A stretch of DNA of 64,000 bases from a virus. Location of the stretch: positions 1-64,000 of IMG/VR virus record IMGVR_UViG_3300023178_000037. The stretch is one strand, 5' to 3'. The translations under genes were made by a program, and so were the position numbers. The notes beneath the pieces are model-generated. The model was not told where the DNA came from. It did no database searches and was given only the letters and a program-made list of their open reading frames with translations. Positions 25,095-37,095 of this stretch are shown in pieces. Within the stretch, counting starts at the first letter, position 1; each line of letters begins with the position of its first letter.

Positions 25095-25123
25095 ATTATA
25101 ACCTGTCATTGACTTTTTGTCAA
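25095..25123 (-). promoter_or_regulatory. Perfect sigma70-type promoter (TTGACA, 17 nt, TATAAT)
   Basis: On the minus strand TTGACA occupies 25118-25123 and TATAAT 25095-25100, with exactly 17 nt between. It overlaps the glycosyltransferase stop codon and lies 20 nt before the 195-aa gene. It is the only perfect host-type promoter noticed in the window and implies early transcription of the oxygenase block by unmodified host polymerase. Confidence 0.75.
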
Positions 25124-26688
25124 GCAAGTACTCTCCATTTTTTATAGATGTCTAAATTATTTATGTGGTCACAATCCATACCTTCTACCCAAGGGCCTCC
25201 CCTAGTATAATGGATACCACTGAAATCCCACTTAACATCAGGGTCATCATATCCTTCTACAAATATGTATTTCTCAGGAATCTTACTGATCTTATCAGTC
25301 CATTCAAACTGATGGAGTTGTTTACCTGTCCAAGTGTTCACTGTTTCAGGTGTAAGTTTTTTACAATCTTCATGACCATTATTAAATATCATCATACTAG
25401 ACCATAATTTTTTTGGATAGTCTATGTTCACTTCTCCGTTAAACTTAGTTTCATCATGTTTATATTGAGGATACTGAATACATGCAACTGCATCATCAGG
25501 ATGTAGATAATAGAACATAGGTAATAAAGTTTTTTCAAAAATAAAATCATCATCTATGAAAATACTAAAACCCTCGTAATTTTCTAAGTAAGGAATTAAA
25601 AACCTACTGTATGTAAACTCTGTTGATTGATTTGCATACTCTCTAGTATATTCAGGTATCTTTGATACATCTAATAGTTTTATTTCAGGTTCGTATCTTA
25701 TTTCATTAATTAAATGTCCTGCACCTGTATCTTTAAAAATACTTTGTTCAATAGAAATTTTAGATACTTCTGCGAGGTTACCATGTCTACTATCGTAACC
25801 AATGTAAATGTTTAATGGTTTACCTTTACTTAAACTATGAACCTTTTTATTCCAATTGTAAATTTTTGGTCTGAACTCTTGCACATTCATCAGGTTACTG
25901 TTATATTCTAATGCACCCTGTATCAGTGTGAATGACACATTATAGTGTCCACCCATACCCATTCTTTGTCCAAGGTCTTCTCGTAGACTTAATTTGGTTT
26001 TCCAATACTCCATGAAATCTTCGAATCCAATGGGTTCTTGATCGATGGTGTCGTATGCATCTGTAATACACAATTCCATATCAGGGTCACCCATCTCTTC
26101 AAAACAACCTGAACGTATAGAGCCTGGATGAATTCTTAGTTGATATCTACTATCTTTAACTAATTCTATTACTTGTCCTTGTATAGGTGCCCAAAGACCA
26201 TCTTCTTGTATACTGTGTATTAACCAATGTGCCTTTGCACTATGGTAATACATTGAGTTTAAAGATTCTAAATCTCGTTTGGATAATGCATATTCTTGTT
26301 CATTGACATGATCTCTTAAATCAATATACTCACCATTTGTATCGACTGTATCCATACCTGCAATTTGATTTTCATGATTGGGACGAGGTTTTTCAGTCCA
26401 TCCTACTGGTAAGAATTTATGATAACATGGTGATTCGTTTTTTAGTCCATTGAACAAAGACCACTTTTCTCTTTTTCGTTCTTTCTCAAAATCTCCCCAT
26501 TTAAAAATTTTTATAGGGGGTATAATTTCTTCAAAAACATATTTAAGAATTGCGTATGTTTCTTTATCCTTGTATTCTTGATCTAATTGAAGTGACCCAA
26601 AATGATAATAGGTATCTTTCCAGTCAGTTTTACCTGCTAGTTCTTCTTTTGCTTGGGATACGGATTCTATTTTAATAAAATTACTCAT
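25120..26688 (-). CDS. Glycosyltransferase fused to an HPGS domain (522 aa)
   Basis: The C-terminal part (about 290-522) is a GT-A glycosyltransferase of GT8-like type: IYIGYDSRHG at 294-303, STEFTYSRFLIPYL at 355-368, and the DxD metal/nucleotide site in FIDDDF (D379-D381). The N-terminal part (1-280) is a separate domain with HSAKAHWLIHSIQEDGLWAP at 149-168, then RIHPGSIRSG at 185-194 and EPIGFEDF. That second part is clearly homologous to the 278-aa protein at 62547. The protein may glycosylate virion fibres or host surface sugars; location beside the fibre genes favours the first. It is followed by the oxygenase block and preceded by the repeat fibres. Confidence 0.78.
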   Translation of the reverse strand: MSNFIKIESVSQAKEELAGKTDWKDTYYHFGSLQLDQEYKDKETYAILKYVFEEIIPPIKIFKWGDFEKERKREKWSLFNGLKNESPCYHKFLPVGWTEKPRPNHENQIAGMDTVDTNGEYIDLRDHVNEQEYALSKRDLESLNSMYYHSAKAHWLIHSIQEDGLWAPIQGQVIELVKDSRYQLRIHPGSIRSGCFEEMGDPDMELCITDAYDTIDQEPIGFEDFMEYWKTKLSLREDLGQRMGMGGHYNVSFTLIQGALEYNSNLMNVQEFRPKIYNWNKKVHSLSKGKPLNIYIGYDSRHGNLAEVSKISIEQSIFKDTGAGHLINEIRYEPEIKLLDVSKIPEYTREYANQSTEFTYSRFLIPYLENYEGFSIFIDDDFIFEKTLLPMFYYLHPDDAVACIQYPQYKHDETKFNGEVNIDYPKKLWSSMMIFNNGHEDCKKLTPETVNTWTGKQLHQFEWTDKISKIPEKYIFVEGYDDPDVKWDFSGIHYTRGGPWVEGMDCDHINNLDIYKKWRVLA

Positions 26689-26720: not shown

Positions 26721-27422
26721 CTATGTAATCGGTGTTGCTGGCCACTGTTGTGACAATACACCATCCCATCTTGCGACAGGAGTTCTACCTTGTCTAGCAT
26801 ACGTTGCAGGTTGTCTGTTCTGATATGTGAAAGGTGTTTGACCTTGTCTCGCATACGTACTAGGTTGTCTGTTTTGATATGTGAACGGTGTCTGCGAGTT
26901 CGAAGGATTTCTATATGTAAACGGCGACCTGTGATTATATGTAGAAGGTTGTCTTGCGTTTGCAATATAAGGATACGGTTGTTGTGCATCCCTAATGTTA
27001 GGTTCCTGTGCATTCTTAATAGTAGGTTGTTGTCCATTTCTAATGTTAGGTTCTTGTGCATTCCTAATATTAGGTTCTTGTGCATTTACTGGATTTCTAT
27101 ATGTAAATGGTGACCTATAGTTATATGTAAACGGTTGTCTTGCATTTGCACGATATGGAACCCTATATGTAAATGGCACTCTATATGTAAAAGGTTGTCT
27201 CGCATTCGCAATATAAGGAACACGATATGTGAAAGGTGACTGATAAGTCACAGGTTGTTGTGCGTTAGCAGGGTACCTTGCACTGTATGTGAAAGGAGAC
27301 TGATAAGTTACAGGCTGTTGAGCATTCGCAGGATATCTTGCGTTGTAAGTAAACGGTGCTTGGCTGTTGACCGTGGCACGAGCCTGACCTTGCATCGATT
27401 GTCTGTGGAAACCTGTTGCCAT
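26721..27422 (-). CDS. Proline-phased repeat fibre/adhesin protein (233 aa)
   Basis: Almost the whole protein (residues 12-225) consists of short units in which prolines recur at steps of 6 or 8 residues, such as QSPFTYSARYP, YIANARQPFTYR, RNPVNAQEPNIRNAQ and QTPFTYQNRQP. The units are rich in Gln, Asn, Arg, Tyr, Thr and Ala and have almost no acidic residues. The even spacing suggests an extended or beta-solenoid fold. No catalytic motif is seen. The same units occur in three other genes of this window. Its Shine-Dalgarno is GAGAGG. It lies last in the fibre cluster, next to the glycosyltransferase. A tail fibre or adhesin is the natural guess. Confidence 0.75.
   Translation of the reverse strand: MATGFHRQSMQGQARATVNSQAPFTYNARYPANAQQPVTYQSPFTYSARYPANAQQPVTYQSPFTYRVPYIANARQPFTYRVPFTYRVPYRANARQPFTYNYRSPFTYRNPVNAQEPNIRNAQEPNIRNGQQPTIKNAQEPNIRDAQQPYPYIANARQPSTYNHRSPFTYRNPSNSQTPFTYQNRQPSTYARQGQTPFTYQNRQPATYARQGRTPVARWDGVLSQQWPATPIT
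26760..27390 (-). repeat. Imperfect coding repeats of the P-phased fibre family, copy 1
   Basis: DNA-level imperfect tandem repeats of 18-24 nt underlie the peptide units. Identical words such as ATATGTAAA(T/C)GG and TTGTCTTGC recur many times and also occur in the other three repeat genes, so recombination between genes is possible. Confidence 0.7.
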
Positions 27423-27440: not shown

Positions 27441-28745
27441 TTATTTCGTACTAATATTATGAACCATTAAACTATTTGCAAAGAAGTTATGATGTGGACT
27501 GTCTACACCAAAGTGATAAACCATCTCTTCATCTGCTTCTTCTATAGATTCAATAATTGACTCTGATAAATTTTGTTTTAAAATTGCATTGTTGATGTCT
27601 TTAATTGCATCACCGATCTGCAATTCTCCGTTGACTTCTTTCATGTCATCGGCATGTCCTAATTCTACTTCTTTATTCCAATCTTCTAAATTAATAACCT
27701 TCCATCCCTGATCTTCAACATAGAATGGATGACCACCTGTTACTTTTAACCACCCACCGTCTGTAAGTTGTAGTTTATAAACTTTACACTCTCTTGGTTC
27801 CATGACATTTGATACACTTACTCTTTCCAGTTCGTTACTTTCTAGATTAAGTGAATACACCACATCACCCACTTGGATGTTTTCTATAGGTGTCATTGAA
27901 GTGTCACCCATCCAAACTTGTGTTCCAGCAGCGAAACATCCTCCTCCACCGTAGAAGTAAACTGCTAAGAAACGGAAAGGATATGTATACGGTTGTTGCG
28001 AAGAACTAGGTTGTCTTGCGTTTGCAATATAAGGCACCCTATATGTAAACGGTGATCTAAATGCAACTGGTTGTCTTGCGTTAGCAATATAAGGTACTCG
28101 ATATGTGAAAGGAGACCTAAATGCAACTGGTTGTCTTGCGTTTGCAGGATATCTAGCATTATACGTAAATGGTGTTTGACCGTTTGCAGGATATCTAGCA
28201 TTTGCAGGATATCTAGCATCATACGTAAATGGTGTTTGTCCGTTTCTTATATTAGGTTGTTGTGCATTTACAGGGTTTCTATATGTAAATGGAGACCTAT
28301 GGTTATAGGTAAACGGTGATCTGTGTTGATACGTAAATGGTGACCTATGTTGATACGTAAATGGTGACCTATGTTGATACGTAAATGGTGATCGACCTGT
28401 TGCCTGATACGTGAAAGGTGTTTGTGCGTTCCTTATATTAGGTTCTTGTGCATTTACTGGATTCTGATATTCTGCAGGTTGTCTTGCGTTTGCAATGTAA
28501 GGTGTTTGTGCGTTTGCAATGTAAGGATAAGGTTGTTGTGCGTTAGCAATATAAGGCGTCTGACTGTTTGCAATGTAAGGATAAGGATTTTGAGTTGCTT
28601 CTTGACCTGATGCATTATTCCACCCTGTAGGTGTCTTAATATAAATCTGATCAACTGCTTTCCATGCTGTGGGAGTCTTTACCCATGCACCCCTAGTTGC
28701 ATTCCAACCTGTAGGTGTTTTTACGCTTTGATTACCTGATGCCAT
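27441..28745 (-). CDS. P-phased repeat fibre protein with C-terminal Hint (intein-like) domain (434 aa)
   Basis: Residues 9-45 carry three KTPTGW-type repeats, a unit common in phage fibres. Residues 53-255 are P-phased repeats (YIANARQP, SPFTYQHR, RNPVNAQ). Residues 256-269 end in a Gly run (GGGG), then a Hint domain of 165 residues begins with C270 in CFAAGTQVWMG. Block B is TGGH (H339) in KVTGGHPFYV, and the last block is VHN with H429-N430. Only ISTK follows, so the +1 residue is Ile and not Cys, Ser or Thr; cleavage or ligation without splicing is expected, as in bacterial intein-like domains. It is probably a virion fibre subunit. Confidence 0.85.
   Translation of the reverse strand: MASGNQSVKTPTGWNATRGAWVKTPTAWKAVDQIYIKTPTGWNNASGQEATQNPYPYIANSQTPYIANAQQPYPYIANAQTPYIANARQPAEYQNPVNAQEPNIRNAQTPFTYQATGRSPFTYQHRSPFTYQHRSPFTYQHRSPFTYNHRSPFTYRNPVNAQQPNIRNGQTPFTYDARYPANARYPANGQTPFTYNARYPANARQPVAFRSPFTYRVPYIANARQPVAFRSPFTYRVPYIANARQPSSSQQPYTYPFRFLAVYFYGGGGCFAAGTQVWMGDTSMTPIENIQVGDVVYSLNLESNELERVSVSNVMEPRECKVYKLQLTDGGWLKVTGGHPFYVEDQGWKVINLEDWNKEVELGHADDMKEVNGELQIGDAIKDINNAILKQNLSESIIESIEEADEEMVYHFGVDSPHHNFFANSLMVHNISTK
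27444..27938 (-). other. Hint (bacterial intein-like) autoprocessing domain
   Basis: Codes for residues 270-434 of the repeat fibre. The catalytic Cys at position 1, the TxxH motif and the terminal His-Asn pair are present. There is no homing endonuclease insert. The C-extein is just four residues. Confidence 0.85.
27960..28600 (-). repeat. Imperfect coding repeats of the P-phased fibre family, copy 2
   Basis: Repeat region encoding residues 50-260 of the Hint fibre. Pieces near 28080-28140 (CGATATGTGAAAGGAG and following) are duplicated almost exactly at 28030-28080. Confidence 0.7.
28325..28396 (-). repeat. 24-nt tandem repeat, three copies
   Basis: Units at 28325-28348, 28349-28372 and 28373-28396 share GTTGATACGTAAATGGTGA; the first two are identical and the third diverges in its last bases. 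Each encodes one octapeptide QHRSPFTY-type unit. It is a natural hot spot for copy-number change. Confidence 0.85.
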
Positions 28746-28766: not shown

Positions 28767-28789
28767 ATACTCCTATTTATTAGGAGTAT
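28767..28789 (-). terminator. Hairpin overlapping a stop codon, terminator candidate
   Basis: A perfect 9-bp stem ATACTCCTA (28767-28775) with TAGGAGTAT (28781-28789), 5-nt loop. It overlaps the stop of the 542-aa fibre gene. The following minus-strand sequence is ATTTTAGAGG, so the T tract is short. The loop side also holds AATAAATA (28774-28781), a possible weak late promoter for the Hint fibre. Confidence 0.5.
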
Positions 28790-30408
28790 AAAATCCACAA
28801 ATCACCAACTGCACCATCTGAAGAAGTTGGAGCAGAGGTTGATTGATACACATTCCTTGCAACACCACCACTGTTATTTGCGTAGTTTGTAGTAATTTGT
28901 GTAAATTCTACGTTTGATGATGTTGATACTGCCTGACCGATTGCAACTTCACCTGAACTGATTGAAACACCAGTTCCTGCAGTGATATGAGCTCTTACTT
29001 CAGCAGCACTTGGCCCTGTGTATGTAATTGTTCCACCACTGTATGCAAGTGAACCATCTCCACCAGCGTCAGTTACAGTAATTGCAGCTCTCGCTCTTGT
29101 ATCAGTATAATACAAGTTGGATGACCCTTCTGAAACATCGTCTGTATCATGGTTTGACACATCTGAAACTGTTCCAGTTACATTACCAGTTAGGTTACCT
29201 TCGAATGTTCCTGCAACAAAAGTTTCTGAACCTACTGTCCATTTGTCATTTGTTTCGTCCCAAAGAAGTGTCTTAGCAGTAGAACCACCTCTAGTGACAC
29301 TAATACCTGTATCTTCTGTAGGTGAACCTGAAGTGAAGTTACTGTTTAATGCAATGATATTATCTGCAAGGTTAATTGTTTCTGAGTTTACAGTTGTTGT
29401 AGTTCCTGAAACTGTTAAGTCACCTGAGACTGTTAGTGAATCATTAACTGCAACTACACCTGTTCCGTTTGCAGTAAGAACTAGGTTTGTATCTGCACTT
29501 CTTGACTCAATTGCATCTACATCAATTGAGTTTGAAAATGAGATTGCATTTCCATCTGATGAAGCAACGTTTGAACCTGCCTGTACTGAGATCGGCCCTT
29601 TTAATTGGATACTACCTGAACCTGTTGGGTCTAATTCAACGTCACCTGAACCTGATGTTTGGACACTAACATTTTGGTTCGCATCAGCAGAAACAACGAT
29701 TGTTCCTGAACTATCTGATACTACTTGTTGACCGTTAACATATAATGACCCTGGCCCGACATACACATCTCTCCAAGTATATGAAGATGAACCTAAGTCG
29801 TATGTGTTGTCTGCACTTGGTACGATATGACCTGTTACGTCTGAATCTGCAGTAAGTGTTATACCTGCGAATGAAGGTTTATCTGAAGTTCCAACTGCCT
29901 GACCGATACTAACTTCACCTGAACTGATTCCAACACCAGTTCCAGCAGTGATATGTGCCTGTACTTCTGATGCACTAGGCCCTGTGTAAGTGAGTACACC
30001 TGTACTGTTATCGTATGCAAGTGAACCATCTCCACCTGAATCTGTTACTGAAATCTTTCCTCTGATAGCAGCGTCAGTAATTGATAAATCAACTGCACCG
30101 TCTCCTGCATCATCGTAAGATGCAGTAATGTTAGTATGTGAACCGTTAGTTACTAACTGAGCACCAACGATATCTTGAATTTCTTCTTCAGTTTTACCAG
30201 TTGATGAGATTGTGATAGTGTCGTTTGTATCATCATAAGTTACAGTTGTTGAACCTGAACCTTGAATGATACCACCAATCTTATCTGCAATTGCTTCGTC
30301 TAAAGCAGTTCCTACTGCACTTGCAGTGATACTACCTGAACTATCAATGACTTCGGTTGTACCAACCGTAAGTCCGTTCTTGATTATGAAATTCTTTTCT
30401 CCTGCCAT
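28780..30408 (-). CDS. Tail fibre-type structural protein (542 aa)
   Basis: A long Ser/Thr/Gly/Asp-rich beta-repeat protein with almost no Cys or Trp. The N-terminus NFIIKNGLTVGTTEVIDSSG is a typical marine-phage fibre opening. Two copies of a module (IRGKISVTDSGGDGSLAYDN and RAAITVTDAGGDGSLAYSGG) each lead into an ITAGTGV(G/S)ISSGEV(S/A)IGQAV unit, and a central block [20 protein letters not shown] occurs also in neighbours. The C-terminal SSDGAVGDLWILYS resembles fibre tips of cyanophage proteins. It shares its start overlap (TAATG) with the 77-aa gene upstream. Adsorption or baseplate decoration is likely. Confidence 0.78.
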   Translation of the reverse strand: MAGEKNFIIKNGLTVGTTEVIDSSGSITASAVGTALDEAIADKIGGIIQGSGSTTVTYDDTNDTITISSTGKTEEEIQDIVGAQLVTNGSHTNITASYDDAGDGAVDLSITDAAIRGKISVTDSGGDGSLAYDNSTGVLTYTGPSASEVQAHITAGTGVGISSGEVSIGQAVGTSDKPSFAGITLTADSDVTGHIVPSADNTYDLGSSSYTWRDVYVGPGSLYVNGQQVVSDSSGTIVVSADANQNVSVQTSGSGDVELDPTGSGSIQLKGPISVQAGSNVASSDGNAISFSNSIDVDAIESRSADTNLVLTANGTGVVAVNDSLTVSGDLTVSGTTTTVNSETINLADNIIALNSNFTSGSPTEDTGISVTRGGSTAKTLLWDETNDKWTVGSETFVAGTFEGNLTGNVTGTVSDVSNHDTDDVSEGSSNLYYTDTRARAAITVTDAGGDGSLAYSGGTITYTGPSAAEVRAHITAGTGVSISSGEVAIGQAVSTSSNVEFTQITTNYANNSGGVARNVYQSTSAPTSSDGAVGDLWILYS

Positions 30409-35213: not shown

Positions 35214-35221
35214 TATTTATA
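35214..35221 (-). promoter_or_regulatory. T4-type late promoter (TATAAATA) abutting the 110-aa gene
   Basis: An exact consensus match with a 5-nt spacer (GTTAT) to the ATG. It overlaps the stop codon of the preceding repeat-fibre gene. Confidence 0.6.
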
Positions 35222-35933
35222 CCTGAGTGTTACTTGGGTTCTTAGAGAACCTTGCAGTTGGTACAGATTGATGTATTTTTTCTACAGTACCTGTTTTATT
35301 TACGTACACTTCACTTAATTTTCTAAGTGTACCATTATCATTTACATATACTCCTTTCACTTTTGCAATCGGGCCTACAGTTCTAGTAGTTGAATATGGT
35401 GCTTGATATGTAAATGGTGACCTCACCGTGTAAGGGAACTGATAGGTTACTTGATATATAAACGGTGATTGTGCATTCGCAATATATGGTGATTGTGCAT
35501 TTGCAGTGACCCTATATGTTGACGGTGATCTATGTTGATACGTAAACGGATTCCTTGCGTTTGCAGGATTGGGTTGTTGTGCATTCCTAATATTAGGTTC
35601 TTGTGCATTTGCAATATAAGGACTTGGATTTTGTGCCTGATATGTATTAGGTTGTCTTGCGTTTCCAGTCGCTCTATAAATTAAAGGTTGTCTTGCATTT
35701 CTAATATTAGGTTCTTGTGCAGATGTAGGGTTTCTATATGTAAACGGAGACCTATGGTTATAGGTGAAAGGACTCTGTTTAGTTGCACGATATGTAAATG
35801 GTGACCTTGCAATATACGGATAAGGTGTTTGACCAATAAGAGGTTGTCTTGCCTGATAAGTCGTTTGACCTTGCGCTTGATAAGTTGTAGGTTGTTGTGC
35901 AATATATGGTATTTGATAGTATCCTGTTGCCAT
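35217..35933 (-). CDS. P-phased repeat fibre protein (238 aa)
   Basis: Residues 5-180 are P-phased repeats (QAQGQTTYQARQPLIGQTPY, SPFTYRNPTSAQEPNIRNARQ, YQHRSPSTYRV). Residues 185-238 form a different end with two KVKGVYVNDNGTLRKLSEVY-like units, a motif known in phage fibre proteins (variants of the K-x-W-x-V-x-x-x-Y-V-K type). Cys is absent. Function: most likely part of a fibre. Its Shine-Dalgarno is AGGAA. It overlaps a late promoter at its 3' end. Confidence 0.74.
   Translation of the reverse strand: MATGYYQIPYIAQQPTTYQAQGQTTYQARQPLIGQTPYPYIARSPFTYRATKQSPFTYNHRSPFTYRNPTSAQEPNIRNARQPLIYRATGNARQPNTYQAQNPSPYIANAQEPNIRNAQQPNPANARNPFTYQHRSPSTYRVTANAQSPYIANAQSPFIYQVTYQFPYTVRSPFTYQAPYSTTRTVGPIAKVKGVYVNDNGTLRKLSEVYVNKTGTVEKIHQSVPTARFSKNPSNTQV
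35395..35925 (-). repeat. Imperfect coding repeats of the P-phased fibre family, copy 3
   Basis: Same words as in the other copies, for example TCTATATGTAAACGGAGACC at 35740 region and GTTGTCTTGC-type pieces. Confidence 0.65.
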
Positions 35934-35934
35934 T

Positions 35935-37095
35935 TTATATTCCTAATGCCTGTCCATAAGTTGCGTTTAATGATATCATACCATGACTATATGTTGATGT
36001 ATATACATTATTACTTGAATCCACACCCTTAACTGTGAAACTAACACCTTGTGCTTGTGTCCATGTAGTACCATTAGGGTTTGGGCCGTTTGGTGTTACA
36101 CATGCCTTCCACAGGAATTGTCTTGCACCACTAGTTGGAACACTATAGTAAGTACCTGAACTATATCCAGCGTTAGTTGGTAATGGCCCTGAACTATAAG
36201 AGTAACAATAACTTGAACTACAGTCTTTACCACTACATGCTTGACTTGATACATCATATTTTACTGTAAATGTGGAACTGGTTGTCAATAGACCTTGATA
36301 TAAAATGTAATCAGAATAAACAGTCGCCTGATATTGATTTGTATAACCAAACCACAATGCCTTAATAGAACTTTGGGCAGTTGCATTTGAGAACTCCATT
36401 GAACACCCTACCTCAGGTGGAGGGTTTGTGGATGCTCTTGATTGCGTAGTATACCAGTACCCAGCTGAACCAGTACCAGGCCCCCAAACTTGTTCTAGTG
36501 GGTCATAGATATATGCAGCTGGTTGTCTTGCATTATAAGACGATCTTGCGTTTGCAATGTATGGATAAGGTGTTCTTCCTATAAATGGAGACTGATATGA
36601 ATATGGTGTTTGACCAATTGTAGGCACTGGTTGTTGTGCGTTACTAGGTGATTGATATGACTGTTGTGCATTTCTAATCACTGGTTGTTGTGCATTTGTA
36701 GGATTTCTATATGTAAACGGTGACCTATAGTTGTACGTAAACGGTGATTGTTTATTTGCTGGTACCTGATATGTAAATGGTGTCTGCGAATTTGCAATAT
36801 AAGGATTCGCTTGTTGTGCCGAATATGTAAATGGTGATCTGTGTTGATAAGTAAACGGAGACCTAACAGTGTAATTGAAAGGTTGTTGTGCGTTTCTTAT
36901 AAACGGAGATTGTTGAACAGCAGGTGTCCTATATGTTACAGGTTGTCTGTTGTTGTATGTTAGGGGTTGTCTTGCCTGTGCAGGTGTTCTACCAGTTGCC
37001 TGTTTGGTTTCAGGTGATTGTGCGTTAACTACTGCTTGCCCTTGATAGGGTTGTTGGAAAGTCGTCCCTGTGTTTATATAGATTTCATCAGCCAT
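35935..37095 (-). CDS. P-phased repeat fibre protein with C-terminal globular domain (386 aa)
   Basis: Residues 14-200 are P-phased repeats (TGRTPAQARQPLTYNNRQP, RSPFTYQHRSPFTYSAQQ, NAQQPVIRNAQQ). Residues 205-386 form a distinct domain with VWGPGTGSAGYWYTTQSRAS, four Cys (about 233, 292, 296 and 301, including ACSGKDCSSSYCYS), a Tyr/Ser-rich centre and SFTVKGVDSSNNVYTSTYSH. This could be the receptor-binding tip. It overlaps nothing but begins 1 nt after the 359-aa gene. No family is recognised for the globular part. Confidence 0.74.
   Translation of the reverse strand: MADEIYINTGTTFQQPYQGQAVVNAQSPETKQATGRTPAQARQPLTYNNRQPVTYRTPAVQQSPFIRNAQQPFNYTVRSPFTYQHRSPFTYSAQQANPYIANSQTPFTYQVPANKQSPFTYNYRSPFTYRNPTNAQQPVIRNAQQSYQSPSNAQQPVPTIGQTPYSYQSPFIGRTPYPYIANARSSYNARQPAAYIYDPLEQVWGPGTGSAGYWYTTQSRASTNPPPEVGCSMEFSNATAQSSIKALWFGYTNQYQATVYSDYILYQGLLTTSSTFTVKYDVSSQACSGKDCSSSYCYSYSSGPLPTNAGYSSGTYYSVPTSGARQFLWKACVTPNGPNPNGTTWTQAQGVSFTVKGVDSSNNVYTSTYSHGMISLNATYGQALGI
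36530..37070 (-). repeat. Imperfect coding repeats of the P-phased fibre family, copy 4
   Basis: Repeat-coding region with the same recurring words (TATGTAAACGGTGA, TTGTTGTGCATT) as the other three copies. Confidence 0.65.

Follow-up and report, generated by a model that had tools for sequence, protein, structure and literature searches.

The window analysed here, a stretch of 64,000 nucleotides, comes from a 72.5-kb virus record (IMGVR_UViG_3300023178_000037) that belongs to a marine T4-like myovirus and includes major head protein, portal, sheath, terminase and baseplate wedge genes. A 1509-residue structural protein of this record has partial relatives that include proteins of Methylophilales, Pelagibacter and Synechococcus phages. 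Within the structural gene cluster, positions 27441–28745 (−) encode a repeat protein of 434 residues, followed by a stop codon. Its conserved upstream neighbour (28780–30408, −) matches PHROG 697, “structural protein.” Downstream lies a second repeat protein of 233 residues (26721–27422, −), which has no Hint domain and is kept as a neighbour in Hint-bearing and Hint-less relatives, and then another conserved neighbour (25120–26688, −) with a weak, below cut-off match to Glyco_transf_8, whose gene was used for the tree of loci. Two further proteins with the same repeat type are encoded upstream in the window, at 35217–35933 and 35935–37095 (−).

The N-terminal module (residues 1–48; 28602–28745, −) contains three (V/I)KTPT-x-W units and is common to Hint-bearing and Hint-less homologues; many columns are invariant over residues 4–64 in an alignment of 20 proteins (A3). 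The repeat region (residues 49–265; 27951–28601, −) is built of SPFTY, PYIANARQP and QEPNIRN-type units and leads into Gly266–Gly269 (27939–27950, −), the end of the N-extein, in which Gly269 is the predicted thioester donor, judging from the sequence and from the Gly found at −1 in relatives. A Hint domain that resembles type A BILs spans residues 270–430 (27456–27938, −), as supported by Pfam, a profile, AlphaFold2 and structure matches, and it is the sole Hint found in the 72.5-kb record. The remaining C-extein, I431-S-T-K434 (27444–27455, −), is read from comparison with Hint-less homologues as the remnant of a natural C-terminal tail. Neither PHROG nor Pfam gives a tail-fibre match for the protein, and its full-length model (pLDDT 58.3; repeats below 50, blocks mostly 30–40) has no confident monomer fold and was left out of the fold search. 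From the position of the gene and the repeats, it is nevertheless plausible that the protein is a fibre.

Fold and catalytic residues of the Hint domain

The domain matches Pfam PF14890 (Intein_splicing) over residues 280–430 with 45.1 bits (cut-off 35.8, E 1.2e-11) and NCBIfam TIGR01445 (intein_Nterm) with 25.8 bits (cut-off 24.5). Its AlphaFold2 model, for which 50 domains were aligned (A2), reaches a pLDDT of 90.9, and the best Foldseek match is BIL2 (6y75, E 2.0e-11), on which VIA-align places 148 residues with a Z of 21.9 and an rmsd of 1.9; the DnaB and cyanophage-like gp41-1 mini-inteins follow at Z 19.8 and 19.5. A profile made of 11 Hint domains, including that of the window, ranks BIL2 (5.8e-15) and the C. 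thermocellum BIL 2lwy (8.5e-15) first among solved structures; a chain with the name “Intein C-terminal splicing domain-containing protein” (2e-10) and a DnaB intein (2.9e-9) rank lower. The profile thus favours BIL structures, whereas the structural scores lie near those of DnaB inteins (Z 19.8 versus 21.9 for BIL2), so that structure alone cannot tell a BIL from an intein. The same profile finds PDB chains of Ataxin-1 (E 9.9e-5), and the Pfam AXH (Ataxin-1) model matches the Hints of the relatives L131, L117, L154 and L145 above its cut-off (up to 141.7 bits); together these matches connect AXH with Hint domains at the sequence level.

The first-pass annotation had placed an intein-like Hint domain at 27444–27938, a stretch that corresponds exactly to codons C270 to K434, and the translation contains each of the residues it listed. 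These are Cys270 (27936–27938, −), the predicted nucleophile of the N-S acyl shift; the block B motif T336-G-G-H339, followed by Pro (27729–27740, −); and His429-Asn430 (27456–27461, −), at which Asn cyclization and cleavage on the C-terminal side are predicted. Asn430 is indeed followed by Ile, with only the four residues ISTK left before the stop. In A2 the initial Cys, the block B His and the terminal His-Asn are invariant and the block B Thr nearly so, at a mean column identity of 36%. With this full catalytic set the Hint would be expected to form a thioester after GGGG, as had been proposed.

IMG/VR was scanned with the whole protein, the Hint profile and two relatives, and the best 80 of 99, of at least 157, of 142 and of 249 relatives were kept per scan, as were the best 80 of 365 in a further scan. 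They were fetched by short peptide patterns, some taken from the Hint itself and those of one scan including His residues, so degenerate Hints may be under-counted. Among the matches listed, at least 36 distinct ORFs of the fibre type carry a Hint, one of them being that of the window, and all 36 show the Cys start, [T/S]xxHP, and HN with a short tail; the loss of Cys, His or Asn in relatives, which the first-pass annotation had named as evidence against processing, is not seen in this set. At position +1 stands G (12), F (10), M (7), Y (2), A (2), I (1), R (1) or L (1), and Cys, Ser or Thr in 0 of these 36; for 31 of them this absence would have a chance of 0.003 if the sequences were independent, which they are not. 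In the 31 distinct Hints with both boundaries set, 4–29 tail residues follow the domain, and position −1 is Gly in 31/31, with Gly-Gly in 25/31. The 107/107 count of a wider Hint set, for which model coverage had to be nearly complete and the T-x-x-H pattern was a loose one, is not relied on; the +1 residue in that set is Ser in 15, Thr in 1 and Cys in 1. All Hint gene pairs listed have dN/dS below 1, with values of 0.19–0.45 at dS up to about 0.25 and up to 0.79 in saturated pairs.

A weak match to PT-HINT (E 0.0059, below cut-off) would be consistent with a Hint that releases a toxin, as in polymorphic toxins. However, four residues and no toxin domain follow the Hint in the window protein, and the 4–29 residues found in the 31 delimited fibre-type relatives are similarly short, which leaves this reading extremely improbable.

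Tails with and without the insert

The N-terminal module is shared, among the matches listed, by 32 distinct proteins with a Hint and 57 distinct complete proteins without it. Of the latter, 40 end within 45 residues past the last repeat, many of them with a Gly run plus a few residues; the other 17 carry a longer extension that is read as another C-terminal domain. The closest Hint-less relatives among the matches listed, L005 and L008, are syntenic with the window on both sides (neighbours 52–81% identical) and end in ...YFFGGGGGGGGGFYPQDLK and ...YFFGSPGFGTGFNPLTK, to which ...YFYGGGG-[Hint]-ISTK is the counterpart in the window. Comparing 29 distinct fibre C-exteins with 32 distinct Hint-less ends gives a suffix score of 254 (versus 152.6 ± 21.0), a score reached by 0 of 2000 shuffled C-extein sets, and Hint-less ends fit the C-exteins better than the C-termini of other ORFs (p 0.0045). 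The pairs include TGFVPLKR/TGFNPLTK, TKTFEP/SPNPFEP and RQQK/GQQQK; the likeness is strong for TKTFEP, TGFVPLKR, RQQK and GEKK and weak for ISTK, and for the first three C-extein residues it is not significant against Hint-less tails (p 0.104). With the Hint removed, tails have a median length of 21, versus 20 in Hint-less tails (p 0.11, which indicates non-difference only).

By these comparisons, the Hint is an insertion in a Gly-rich linker before a short C-terminal peptide and not a terminal fusion. The earlier description of a domain “ending a fibre protein” is misleading in this respect: the Hint-less alleles show that it lies upstream of a retained C-terminal peptide. An inactive inserted Hint would equally leave a homologous tail, which counts against taking the tail as a sign of self-excision.

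The likeness of the ends might also arise because both kinds encode the signal that starts translation of the following gene, in which case the C-extein would be uninformative on splicing. In many relatives the stop codon shares bases with the ATG that comes next (TAATG) and the final codons are rich in purines, and owing to these possible ribosome-binding sites the excess of Lys/Arg ends (27/29 C-exteins, 18/32 Hint-less tails and 241/998 other ORFs) is no proof of peptide selection; it was dropped as such a proof, being confounded by ribosome-binding signals. In the window, however, the ATG that opens the next gene lies 21 bases past the last codon and has its own GAGGA, so that this caveat does not reach the window's own tail, and TGFVPLKR/TGFNPLTK, TFEP/PFEP and RAVLRR are not purine-only. 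We consider the start signal a rather unlikely explanation, and one that would leave the insertion and the catalytic residues untouched.

The same insert is present in two baseplate-hub-like families. Family A, which matches the baseplate-hub model PF09931 just below the family cut-off, has a Hint in 7 of 53 distinct proteins among the matches listed. With the Hint removed, its tails measure 26–28 aa versus 24–34 in 45 complete Hint-less proteins; the suffix-6 match is reached in 0/2000 shuffles and 0/1000 other-ORF samples, and the suffix-5 match in 3/2000 and 1/1000. Family B has a Hint in 4 of 41 proteins (among the matches listed), tails of 22–33 versus 22–34 aa in 34 complete Hint-less proteins, and a suffix-6 match reached in 0/2000 shuffles and 0/1000 other-ORF samples. 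In this family the end RAVLRR is common to the Hint-bearing L161 and L152 and the Hint-less L434, and the Hint-bearing L163 ends in RNEQQK versus RNEQQR in L410 and L413. The hub Hints (L117, L133, L120, L161, L154 and L163) lie in a Gly-rich tail and have Lys at +1. Four Roseobacter phages carry a family A homologue of Hint-less length between the tape measure and tail protein genes. Roseobacter phage CRP-811 was considered as a cultured source of a Hint-bearing hub, from a match to L117 residue 281, and rejected; its annotation gives a 552-base gene and then another, so that a Hint there is unsupported and the phage does not count here as a cultured example.

Hints also occur in other arrangements. 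Among the matches listed, more than one Hint start occurs in 30 of 91 distinct Hint ORFs (e.g., L131, L139, L140, and L148), with a maximum of four in one protein of 895–916 residues (starts at 308, 466, 616 and 765 in L131) and linkers as short as IPPK or KF. In the Gly-rich proteins L142, L144 and L146 (Gly_rich_2 in Pfam for L146) a long stretch rich in Gly flanks the Hint on either side, and their sequences make them good candidates for splicing with a long C-extein. L145 and L147 have Hints with Cys at +1 (AHNCGGG) near the C-terminus of other viral proteins and, on this evidence, could splice like ordinary inteins. BFVD includes predicted viral proteins annotated as “Hint domain containing protein.”

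Presence and exchange of the Hint between phages

The neighbour-gene tree covers 81 loci among the matches listed (30 with a Hint, 35 with a short tail and 16 with another domain), and Hint presence requires 7 changes on it, at least 6 of these changes being forced by well-supported branches. The stretches fetched for the 57 Hint-less loci, read on both strands, yielded no Hint at any other place; Hint-bearing stretches were read on the match strand. L015 and L400 have neighbour proteins that are 95% identical, whereas their Hints are 44% identical and their C-exteins differ, which points to exchange of a C-terminal cassette. The cassette that differs consists of the last repeats, the Hint and the tail.

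The best 80 of 91 bacterial and archaeal relatives, with identities of 22–38%, include no close cellular source of the Hint. A tblastn search of 50,697 cultured-phage records with the whole protein gave no match at 1e-5, and the relative L042 gave partial matches only, in 6 records. The L003 Hint matched 42 cultured-phage records, and the 40 listed lie in genes for helicase, terminase, P-loop NTPase, coil containing or hypothetical proteins; many are unnamed, and those with a named function are helicase, P-loop NTPase and terminase.

The modular C-termini of this protein, with a longer extension in 17 of the 57 distinct Hint-less homologues, and the divergence of the L015 and L400 Hints beside a conserved neighbour are also what a variable fibre tip would show. 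The Hint might then be an unprocessed structural part of that tip, serving for example in receptor binding, with its chemistry unused. A mere scaffold needs no catalytic residues, however, and the invariance of Cys, block B His and HN in 50 domains whose columns are otherwise 36% identical on average counts against this possibility, which appears improbable.

Proposed processing and comparison with known systems

Comparison shows the fold, the catalytic residues and how well they are conserved, an insertion that leaves the C-extein in place, and the syntenic presence and absence of the domain; that the reactions take place, in which order, and how much product is rejoined and how much cleaved, we infer. 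The domain is probably a self-excising type A BIL-like insert whose outcome would be either religation to GGGG-ISTK or a fibre that stops at GGGG. It would act in the Gly linker between the repeat shaft and the short C-terminal peptide of what is probably a fibre protein. After translation, Cys270 would take the acyl group of Gly269 as a thioester, and Asn430 would cyclize beside His429 and free the C-terminal peptide. Given that there is no Cys, Ser or Thr at +1, the acyl group of the thioester would then pass either to the Ile431 amine set free by cleavage, producing the rejoined GGGG-ISTK, a type of end that Hint-less relatives carry directly, or to water, producing a fibre that ends in GGGG. 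These steps are those of well-established Hint chemistry.

The first-pass annotation went too far in stating that such a domain “cannot splice out cleanly,” since type A BILs without a +1 nucleophile are reported to splice by aminolysis, with cleavage dominating (PMC4031507, in part). PMC7664689 describes BILs as lacking the +1 nucleophile and giving mainly cleaved products, and the review PMC7765530 states that type A BILs are unable to ligate. A C-extein of only four residues may also diffuse off ahead of religation.

Cleavage or transfer could accordingly be the only outcome, as in Hedgehog or BUBL proteins, so that the tail would never be rejoined and the fibre would end in GGGG or pass the Gly269 acyl group to the amine of another protein. 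The missing +1 nucleophile, the tetrapeptide C-extein and the Gly (31/31) or Gly-Gly (25/31) that precedes fibre-type Hints are in keeping with this outcome, and isopeptide bond formation is reported (PMC8616854, in part) for BIL2, the solved structure nearest to the window domain. Against it, HN is kept in 36/36 fibre-type Hint proteins among the matches listed, so that C-terminal cleavage appears to be selected too, and the C-exteins retain the character of natural tails. Cleavage or transfer alone is thus considered unlikely, and self-excision is preferred.

An extension by analogy would make phage BILs built-in ligases that pass the Gly-thioester of a fibre or hub to an amine of a virion subunit or of the host surface. 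The result would be covalent cross-links made without an enzyme, or fibre ends in a tunable mixture. It is modelled on BIL2, which according to passages of PMC8616854 joins a ubiquitin-like C-terminus to a lysine through an isopeptide bond, and on the Lys at +1 in the hub families and the Gly donor; we regard it as speculative and doubtful. The comparisons gave no evidence for the cross-linking of the fibre to another virion component or to the cell that the first-pass annotation had suggested.

Titles and the opening parts of abstracts in the open literature, with few subscription journals or preprints among them, yielded no Hint, BIL or intein in phage fibre or structural proteins, which is weak evidence of novelty; PMC3556154 and PMC5259590 concern terminase and ribonucleotide reductase inteins. 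Here BIL-like domains occur in structural-type proteins of three families, mostly after a Gly run near the C-terminus, with Hint-less alleles available for comparison in all three. An insert that comes and goes in related phages suggests self-editing virion proteins. If active, these domains would let phages alter or diversify virion protein ends post-translationally, and BIL domains would gain a setting in which one natural role is testable. They also add to the supply of compact domains for ligation, candidates that may accept Gly donors and need no +1 nucleophile.

Among known systems, the Hog domain of Hedgehog (1at0) shares the fold (VIA-align Z 16.0) and the thioester chemistry, whereas the window domain ends in His-Asn, is followed by a C-extein and lacks the additional region for sterol recognition, the protein stopping at ISTK. 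Inteins carry Cys, Ser or Thr at +1 and typically interrupt conserved enzyme sites, such as the active site of an essential enzyme. The DnaB and cyanophage-like gp41-1 mini-inteins resemble the window Hint in fold, at nearly equal Z, in the existence of intein-free alleles and in having no endonuclease domain. By contrast with class 1 inteins, the window Hint has Ile at +1 and sits in a variable tail, the C-terminal Gly linker of a repeat protein, and not in a conserved enzyme active site. BIL2 of the Tetrahymena BUBL1 polyubiquitin locus (6y75, 6tmm) is the best match by profile, Foldseek and VIA-align, and transfer of a C-terminus to an amine is reported for it (PMC8616854, in part); it is flanked by ubiquitin-like domains in a ciliate, whereas Pfam finds none in the window protein. 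Type A BILs (C. thermocellum BIL, 2lwy) share the Hint fold, the N-terminal Cys, the block B T-x-x-H, the C-terminal His-Asn, the absence of a +1 nucleophile (I431 here) and the location in variable host proteins, which here means a variable region of a non-conserved protein, as seen from the modular C-termini and the swap between L015 and L400. Unlike them, the window Hint belongs to a virion-type protein of a marine phage, sits in a Gly-rich linker a few residues ahead of the C-terminus and has alleles without a Hint at its locus. Judged by sequence and predicted structure, the window domain works like a type A BIL, and none of the features tested spoke against that class.
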